Positions 21,845-23,210 of a DNA stretch of 33,457 bases are shown piece after piece. The notes below the pieces were generated by a model. The model was not told where the DNA came from. It searched no databases and saw only the letters and a program-made list of their open reading frames with translations. The DNA comes from an uncultured Oscillospiraceae bacterium. Its GTDB lineage: Bacteria > Bacillota > Clostridia > Oscillospirales > Acutalibacteraceae. The stretch covers positions 1 through 33,457 of the forward strand of contig CASDTR010000027.1 of NCBI GenBank assembly GCA_949283785.1. Reading direction: 5' to 3'. Within the stretch, counting starts at the first letter, position 1. Every line of letters starts with the position of its first letter. The translations under genes and the position numbers were made by a program.

Positions 21845-22888
21845 TTAATTGGCTATTTTGTGATGAACAGGTGAAACCTTTTCGGTCAAAACACCGAAGG
21901 AGTAACCTTTTGACTTAAAATACTCTATGATCTGCGGCAAAGCCTTGGGAGTAGTAGACTTGTTTCCGGCATCATGCATGAGCACTATTACCCTGTCGGT
22001 ACCGGGATTACTTATCTTTATATTCTCAACGAGCTTTGAAACAGGCACATTGTTCCCCGCAGCGTCTCCGCTGTCACAGTTCCAGTCAAAATACTCATAT
22101 CCCATATTATGCACTTTCCGAGCGGCTGTACTTATTATTCCTCTGCAATATTTTCTGCTTACCGTATTGCTGCTTCCTCCCGGAAAACGTATTATCCTGC
22201 TGTTAACGCCCGTCTCCGACTTGACTATTTCAGCTATATTGGAGAGATCCTTTAAATATGCACCTAAAGACGAATATATATTTTTATAATCGTGGGTTTC
22301 GGAATGAAGGCCTATGGCATGTCCTTCATCTACTATATTTTTCATGTATTTATTATAGCCCTTGCCGTCTATTACGAAAAACGTGGCTTTGACATTGTAC
22401 TTTCTCAAAACCTCAAGCACCTTCGGAGTGTTTTTGGACGGCCCGTCGTCAAAGGTAAGGTATACAACCTTGCCCGAGGAGACGGAACCGTCCTCGGGTA
22501 CATTGGGCTGAGGAGCCGCAGCGGGCTCCCGTGAATCTTTTTTTTCCGTGCTTTCCGCTTTCTCAGATGATTTTTCTTTTTCCTTTTTCATCTCTCTGAG
22601 CTTCTCGTTTTCACTTTCCAGCTCTTCTATTTTTTTCTTATCCTCATCCTTCTCTTTTTCCAGCTCATTAAGCCTGCTTTCGAGTTCTTCGATCTTCTCC
22701 TGCGCCCTTTCCTTTCCTCCGCTTGCCCTCTCGGACAGGTCCGAAACCGAGCTGCTCATCCTTGACATTTCCTCGTAAAGCTTTGTTTTATCTATGTAAA
22801 GCTTTATCCCCACTGCCGAAATGATGCATATTATGATAAGGCCCAGAGCCGTTATTCTGCGTAATTTTTTAGCGTAAATGGATTTCAT
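21845..22888 (-). CDS. membrane-anchored coiled-coil polysaccharide deacetylase
   Basis: This is a NodB-fold carbohydrate esterase (CE4), probably acting on cell-wall glycans outside the membrane. Its 347 residues comprise a basic start, a membrane helix at about 12-31, a long Glu/Lys coiled coil (about 35-120), a short Pro/Ala linker and the catalytic domain. Motifs are TFDDG (145-149), HSETH (195-199), RFPGG (234-238), DWNCDS (268-273) and LMHD (303-306), so the metal site and catalytic residues look intact. GGAGG lies seven bases before the ATG at 22888. A phased TTGTA array lies just upstream of its promoter and suggests WalR-type control. Confidence 0.9.
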   Translation of the reverse strand: MKSIYAKKLRRITALGLIIICIISAVGIKLYIDKTKLYEEMSRMSSSVSDLSERASGGKERAQEKIEELESRLNELEKEKDEDKKKIEELESENEKLREMKKEKEKSSEKAESTEKKDSREPAAAPQPNVPEDGSVSSGKVVYLTFDDGPSKNTPKVLEVLRKYNVKATFFVIDGKGYNKYMKNIVDEGHAIGLHSETHDYKNIYSSLGAYLKDLSNIAEIVKSETGVNSRIIRFPGGSSNTVSRKYCRGIISTAARKVHNMGYEYFDWNCDSGDAAGNNVPVSKLVENIKISNPGTDRVIVLMHDAGNKSTTPKALPQIIEYFKSKGYSFGVLTEKVSPVHHKIAN

Positions 22889-22919
22889 GGCACTGCCTCC
22901 CAATGTTTTTTCCTGCATC

Positions 22920-22948
22920 ATTCTACCATCTTCGACAGCGAAATCCAA
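22920..22948 (-). promoter_or_regulatory. putative promoter of the deacetylase gene
   Basis: TTGGAT (22943-22948) and TAGAAT (22920-22925), 17 bases apart on the minus strand, lie about 30 bases before the ATG. Both are imperfect, as expected for a promoter that needs an activator. The TTGTA array begins two bases upstream of the -35. Confidence 0.5.
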
Positions 22949-22949
22949 T

Positions 22950-23007
22950 TACAATACCGCTACAATAAAGTACAATTAGGCTACAATCAGTTACAACTTA
23001 TTACAAA
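22950..23007 (-). promoter_or_regulatory. six-unit helically phased TTGTA array, WalR-box-like
   Basis: Six copies of TTGTA (TACAA on the plus strand, starting at 22950, 22961, 22971, 22982, 22992 and 23002) recur every 10 or 11 bases, so all face one side of the helix. The known WalR (YycF) site is TGTWAH-N5-TGTWAH with an 11-base period; three units match TGTWAH fully and three differ at one position. The array abuts the -35 of the deacetylase gene. In Bacillus, WalR controls cell-wall genes including the deacetylase pdaC. The protein assignment is inference. Confidence 0.65.
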
Positions 23008-23105
23008 AATAATAAATATACGACTGTATACAGATTCTGCCTCACGGCGCAAAAGAGGTATGCCTCCATTACGCCCCATAAGCTTAGCACAGATTTAAAG
23101 CAAAA

Positions 23106-23141
23106 ATCACCCGAAATCGGACGGAGCCGATCACGGGTGAT
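23106..23141 (-). terminator. terminator downstream of the mazF remnant
   Basis: Nested stems ATCACCCG/CGGGTGAT and ATCGG/CCGAT (23106-23141) are followed by TTTTTG on the minus strand, about 60 bases after the mazF stop. Confidence 0.8.
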
Positions 23142-23183: not shown

Positions 23184-23210
23184 GAGAATACATAAGATTT
23201 ATGTATTCTC
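23184..23210. repeat. perfect 12-bp hairpin spanning the mazF stop codon
   Basis: GAGAATACATAA (23184-23195) pairs perfectly with 23199-23210 across a GAT loop. The stem includes the last codons and stop of the mazF frame and no T-run follows. The minus-strand RNA carries UACAU, the cleavage pentamer known for MazF of Bacillus and Staphylococcus. Confidence 0.55.

Follow-up and report, generated by a model that had tools for sequence, protein, structure and literature searches.

A phased six-unit TTGTA array before a cell wall deacetylase gene in an uncultured Oscillospiraceae bacterium: a conserved, unusually long operator, probably for a WalR-type regulator

Six TTGTA units, arranged as direct repeats one helical turn apart and ending against the weak promoter of a polysaccharide deacetylase gene, form a real and conserved operator in an uncultured Oscillospiraceae bacterium; its kind is known, its length unusual. 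What is new is its length, the mixture of 10- and 11-bp steps between its units, and a difference of exactly one turn between sister species. The array lies in a stretch of 33,457 nucleotides (the window). This stretch makes up contig 27 of a genome that totals 2.4 Mb over 71 contigs. In the interpretation favored here, which is moderately probable, the array serves as the operator of a WalR-type regulator of the OmpR family that would bind head to tail and cooperatively and activate the deacetylase gene.

On the minus strand between 22950 and 23006, all six copies of TTGTA are exact and follow one another at steps of 10, 10, 11, 10, and 11 (Table 1), just as the initial annotation of this DNA had described; the mean step of 10.4 bp places them on one face of the DNA. 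That annotation also counted three full matches to the WalR half-site TGTWAH and three with one mismatch. These prove to be units 1, 2, and 6 and units 3, 4, and 5, respectively, so that the fit is better at the ends of the array than in its middle. The array does end near a weak −35 hexamer, with one base between them rather than the two first given. The two hexamers with their 17-base spacer can be read as the deacetylase promoter, and a consensus promoter scan listed no minus-strand promoter at the array. Between the hexamers stands TGTCGAA (22931-22937, minus strand), also kept in G001, the congeneric genome of the sister species, which we take to resemble a Spo0A box.

Table 1. Features of the array, its promoter, and the adjoining gene, in positions of the window
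Feature	Position	Strand	Remarks
Terminator-like hairpin + T-run	23102..23141	-	between mazF-like gene and array
Unit 1, TTGTA	23002..23006	-	TGTAAT, TGTWAH fully matched
Unit 2, TTGTA	22992..22996	-	TGTAAC, TGTWAH fully matched; step 10
Unit 3, TTGTA	22982..22986	-	TGTAGC, one mismatch to TGTWAH; step 10
Unit 4, TTGTA	22971..22975	-	TGTACT, one mismatch to TGTWAH; step 11
Unit 5, TTGTA	22961..22965	-	TGTAGC, one mismatch to TGTWAH; step 10
Unit 6, TTGTA	22950..22954	-	TGTAAT, TGTWAH fully matched; step 11; one base from −35
Weak −35 hexamer, TTGGAT	22943..22948	-	read from sequence; also in G001
Good −10 hexamer, TAGAAT	22920..22925	-	read from sequence; 17-base spacer; also in G001
Likely RBS, GGGAGG	22896..22901	-	
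NodB polysaccharide deacetylase	21845..22888	-	PF01522, 1.5e-28

The translation of the deacetylase gene begins with a hydrophobic N-terminal segment and also contains a charged stretch of coil-like character. Its likely start is the ATG at 22888; a TTG at 22948, listed as an alternative start, falls within the promoter region that it overlaps. Upstream of the array, a profile search finds a MazF-like gene. Just behind the mazF-like gene is an inverted repeat without a T-run, GAGAATACATAA-atc-TTATGTATTCTC (23184-23210, minus strand), and G001 has a similar repeat at the same place.

A chance origin of the array is ruled out by controls on 5-mers, word frequency, and reversed patterns. Among the 5-mers of the window at 10/11-bp steps, more than two copies are reached only by TTGTA/TACAA and the overlapping ATTGT/ACAAT, and the frequency of TTGTA predicts about 6e-12 six-unit runs in the window if independence is assumed. 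A three-unit pattern finds in the same genome only the array and one other locus, with none for the reversed control, and is present in 22 of 98 genomes, this one included, compared with 5 of 98 for the control. A four-unit pattern with its last step fixed at 10 matches a single genome among 394 from the order, that of the window itself, and its reversed control one other genome at two places; this pattern cannot match the array of G001, in which the later steps are 11. Shorter patterns are less informative. The exact two-unit TTGTA word occurs at 19 places in the genome against 3 for the control, including places at ftsZ and a P-type ATPase gene, but because matches also fall inside genes, single TTGTA pairs are not counted as sites. 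The genome scan for TGTWAH pairs at a 10–11-bp period that had been proposed as a check gives, as TGTAAH-N4/5-TGTWAH, 16 places where the control gives 8, and single pairs therefore say little.

Conservation upstream of orthologous deacetylase genes, the other check proposed at the outset, is found in the sister species and is lacking in most other relatives. In G001, whose deacetylase is 79% identical, five units precede the gene at steps of 10, 10, 11, and 11. The alignment with the window requires a single 10-base gap, placed between units 4 and 6; all 25 aligned unit bases are kept as against 12 of 22 spacer bases, and the −35 and −10 hexamers are identical and enclose 17 bases of which 14 are shared. 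In a third genome of the genus (G002), the deacetylase is only 41% identical and the three-unit pattern is not matched. The 30 best relatives of the deacetylase, from 92 genomes with a match and with the gene itself and that of G001 included, were compared over at most 470 upstream bases each: on the strand of the gene, at least two tandem units occur in 7 and at least three in 3, with none on the opposite strand, and 23 lack two exact tandem units, a result that tells in part against the original proposal, as the initial annotation had foreseen.

The only other three-unit locus of the genome (L093) lies upstream of the gene for a DUF348-G5-3D protein, presumably YabE/YocH-like from its domains, and contains the exact WalR site TGTAAT-N5-TGTAAC; three units likewise precede the 3D-domain gene of G001. 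Among the 30 best relatives of this gene (from 89 genomes with a match, this genome and G001 included), tandem TGTAA at 10/11 bp is present with at least two units in 14 and at least three in 8, compared with shuffle means of 0.1 and 0 and with 3 and 0 on the opposite strand. The distance between paired TGTAA words is 10 in 10 sequences, 11 in 11, 9 in 3, and 12 in 1. Two loci before 3D-domain genes (L119 and L144) carry the inverted form GTTACAATTTTGTAAC instead of direct repeats, which is unexpected under strict head-to-tail binding and is counted against the favored interpretation. At three others (L120, L127, and L135), a second recurring element, TGTGCA-N4/5-TGCACA, separates the tandem units from the gene; it is possibly the palindrome of another regulator.

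A pattern of paired units chosen without regard to genes, TTGTAAC-N3/4-TTGTAAC, has 88 places spread over 52 of 98 genomes, compared with 7 places for its reversed control. Merging overlaps and dropping one place with flanks identical to those of another leaves 82 sites. The pattern misses the array of the window, the units of which are too varied, so that these sites represent its relatives, with the array of G001 among them. Two units are present in 64 sites, three in 16, and five in 2. One of these two is the array of G001; the other belongs to a genome of another family (G095, L209 2620-2672; steps 10, 11, 10, and 11) and has no clear gene behind it. The first step is 11 in 59 sites and 10 in 23. 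No common spacing between the last unit and a −10 hexamer emerges over the 82 sites, and the geometry of the deacetylase promoter is therefore not general.

Genes behind these sites are biased in content. Downstream proteins were scanned at 48 of the 82 sites, the other 34 being dropped for lack of a plausible downstream frame or for a longer frame on the other strand. The families found include G5 (20), 3D (14), DUF348 (12), Peptidase_M23 (7), LysM (6), NlpC/P60 (2), SLH (2), and NodB (1). As a control, upstream frames were taken at 38 of these 48 sites from stop to stop, some of which may not be real genes; among the 25 of their 26 families that are listed, G5, 3D, M23, NlpC/P60, CHAP, and NodB are absent, and SH3_3 appears in one. 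For G5 alone, 20 of 48 downstream against 0 of 38 upstream gives a Fisher probability of 1e-6. Among the 25 of 43 downstream families listed, none is a phosphate-transport family. Assigned by similarity, the 82 sites include 27 with wall-active genes (G5/3D/M23/NlpC-P60/CHAP/NodB), 2 with SLH proteins, 1 with a P-type ATPase, and 2 with argininosuccinate lyase, and 50 match none of the ten query gene types; as the query proteins came mostly from the sites themselves, some of these matches are self-matches. Judged from these gene contents, the TTGTAAC-pair sites mark a wider regulon of wall enzymes with the content of a WalR regulon, the targets being secreted peptidoglycan-active proteins as in that regulon. 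No description of a wall gene regulon with TTGTAAC pairs was found in the open-licence literature, as far as the available excerpts extend.

Sites beside other kinds of genes were also seen. In the genome of the window, TTGTATTTTTATTGTA (L107, C29:22266-22281) lies about 100 bases upstream of ftsZ and adjoins TATAAT; ftsAZ is linked to WalR in Bacillus. Tandem units stand before P-type cation ATPase genes in three genomes (L108, L025, and L173 in G000, G027, and G047). One genus of another family (G086 and G062, L233-L241) has many sites like TTGTAACTATTTTGTAAC, two of them before argininosuccinate lyase, and these perhaps belong to a different regulon with a similar word.

How the array compares with published systems is considered here from excerpts of the papers cited. 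The WalR (YycF/VicR) box of Bacillus, Staphylococcus, and Streptococcus shares with it TGTAA half-sites in direct repeat close to the promoter, and the WalR regulon shares wall enzyme targets that include deacetylases (pdaC and pgdA). The proposal that the array is an extended WalR-like site thus holds for the half-sites and the targets, but not for the exact box: TGTWAH-N5-TGTWAH does not occur in the array, where the adjacent good units TGTAAT and TGTAAC are 10 bp apart instead of 11 and the pair of units 5 and 6 misses one base. Across 157,791 bases (the window and 13 further stretches, 2 kb being counted twice), the exact box occurs once, at the array of the 3D-domain gene, and its 10-bp version only in that array and the array of the window; reversed controls gave three matches, two of them inside the array of the window. 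Published accounts have WalR occupying two half-sites as a dimer, as against six units at mixed steps here. In B. subtilis its spacing is reported to be strict, one base added to the yocH spacer having abolished binding (quoted in PMC4168254); the array, by contrast, is one base short. The parallel drawn earlier with Bacillus pdaC is right in that WalR acts on this gene, but it does so by repression (PMC4478028), the opposite of the sign expected here. The pgdA gene of Clostridioides difficile, which is induced, directly or indirectly, on WalR overexpression (PMC9210968), is the closer parallel.

The six-unit architecture, which the initial annotation had set beyond known boxes, exceeds those of WalR but is already known in the OmpR family: Streptomyces PhoP occupies four core and two ancillary 11-nt units at pitH2, covering 64 nt (PMC7866108), and PhoP of B. 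subtilis reportedly assembles into many multimers when on DNA (PMC4415409). The Streptomyces operators resemble the array in having six direct-repeat units of unequal strength and an OmpR-family binder, predicted in the present case, and the overlap of their units with the −35 region at glpQ1 and glpQ2 is counted as a further likeness. They differ in a GTTCACC-like unit, an 11-nt step, and phosphate genes as targets, a type absent from the families listed behind the sites. In the HLR1 element of RpaB, (G/T)TTACA(T/A)(T/A) in two repeats with 2 nt between them (PMC9241938), an OmpR-type regulator reads the same half-site (TTACA, that is, TGTAA) at a 10-bp step, with two units only, in cyanobacteria, and at other genes. 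Helically phased direct repeats beside a promoter, as in the array, would on sequence grounds place it among the tandem operators of the OmpR family.

The genome encodes 11 OmpR-family regulators, seven of which were scanned with NCBIfam models. One, on contig C51, has YycF as its best model (258.5 bits, cut-off 340), with MtrA nearly equal at 257.1. It stands in the order regulator-kinase-HtrA, the kinase having WalK as its best model (274.5 bits against a cut-off of 725) and the HtrA-like protein being a protease of trypsin-PDZ type. Another, on contig C46, also has YycF as its best model (227.4, cut-off 340) and is paired with a kinase best matched by WalK (217.7, cut-off 725); the genes preceding this pair are presumably cdaA/ybbR-like. 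Both regulators and both kinases thus fall below the YycF and WalK cut-offs. Among solved structures, that nearest to the DNA-binding domain of the C51 regulator is SaeR, with VicR and WalR further down, and that nearest to the domain of the C46 regulator is WalR. A third regulator, on C26, has PhoB as its best model (215.1, cut-off 296.2), and the frames beside it read as pst and phoU. Of 98 genomes, 79 have an orthologue of the C51-type kinase and 81 one of the C46-type kinase (E ≤ 1e-60), and each of the 23 genomes whose sites are tied to wall genes has both; the corresponding chances of 0.003 and 0.006 hold only for independent genomes, which these, sharing descent, are not. Around the candidate regulators, the scanned stretches contain no WalR or 10-step site, and autoregulation is thus not seen. 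Among genomes with just one of the two kinases, TGTAAC/T is found upstream of the best 3D-gene match in 7 of 12 that lack the C51-type kinase (12 of the 15 genomes had the region), compared with 0 of 10 (10 of 13) in those lacking the C46-type kinase. Naming the C46 regulator as the binder from this co-occurrence (Fisher 0.005) was set aside; the groups are mostly different families and some matches may be non-orthologous. Because of the half-site and the gene content, a WalR-type regulator likely binds the array, with the C51 and C46 proteins as the two candidates. The core of the original proposal, phased tandem half-sites beside a promoter that are kept in G001, belong to a wall enzyme regulon, and occur in a genome with WalR-like systems, is upheld.

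Other origins and other binders explain less of this evidence. That the array is a functionless simple repeat produced by slippage would fit the difference of exactly one 10-bp unit between the sister species, but the stretches between the units are not copies of one another, the units are retained while the spacers diverge, and the tandem word before wall genes is far above controls; this origin is extremely improbable. It is quite unlikely that the repeats are coated, head to tail, by a filament of a small BldC-like (HTH_17) protein. BldC of Streptomyces does form cooperative multimers on head-to-tail direct repeats, the number of which varies (PMC5859096), and HTH_17 frames are present in the genome, three above the cut-off (79-85 aa) and three below it (71-100 aa); however, the units of this MerR-like protein are AT-rich and 9 bp long (AATTNNNNC), differing from TGTAA at 10–11 bp, and the half-site of the array fits WalR or RpaB. 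A more serious alternative, still improbable, is that an OmpR-family regulator not of WalR type, such as the PhoB/PhoP-like protein of C26 or a VanR-like one, binds with the same architecture in response to another signal. The number of such regulators in the genome, the precedent of PhoP on six tandem units, and the resemblance of the C51 domain to SaeR favor it; the wall enzyme genes behind the sites and the match of the C46 domain to WalR oppose it. PhoP itself was rejected as the binder, the pst region examined having no WalR-type or 10-step pair.

The sign of control is a separate issue. Under the favored interpretation, one protomer of the WalR-type regulator would occupy each TTGTA(A) half-site, head to tail along one DNA face; once phosphorylated, the regulator would fill the good end sites and then, through contacts between neighbors, the weaker ones in the middle. 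On unit 6, the protomer would abut the weak −35 and help sigma there, so that activity of the wall-sensing kinase would turn the gene on steeply. Activation is preferred because WalR sites that lie upstream of the −35 are linked to activation in S. aureus (PMC10746227); as B. subtilis pdaC is repressed, the sign could differ. Binding as proposed but with repression of the deacetylase gene, a version that departs from the favored one in sign only, is a minority prospect. The WalR-repressed genes pdaC and iseA have the highest WalR occupancy in B. subtilis (PMC4478028), and a protein bound at unit 6, against the −35, could block RNA polymerase; the S. aureus rule, the weakness of the −35, and the induction of C. 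difficile pgdA speak against repression. Also weighing on the favored interpretation are the missing N5 box, the scores of both regulator-kinase pairs below the cut-offs, the deacetylase relatives without two exact units, the 50 sites matching no query, the predominance of two-unit sites, the lack of a common spacing to a −10, and the autoregulation that is not seen, together with control frames that are partly uncertain and the position of the array of the window outside the pair pattern.

The array would then be the longest operator seen of an order-wide regulon of secreted wall enzymes. More tentatively, WalR-type regulators of this order may read TGTAA at mixed 10/11-bp steps and polymerize along the DNA, unlike the two-site WalR of Bacilli, with whole turns gained or lost to tune the steepness of wall gene switches and with the six-unit operator as the extreme case. 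Because arrays with two, three, five, and six units occur naturally, they offer a handle on how unit number relates to the steepness of a wall homeostasis switch, and TTGTAAC at 10–11 bp provides a usable word by which wall regulons of uncultured Oscillospiraceae and their relatives could be predicted.
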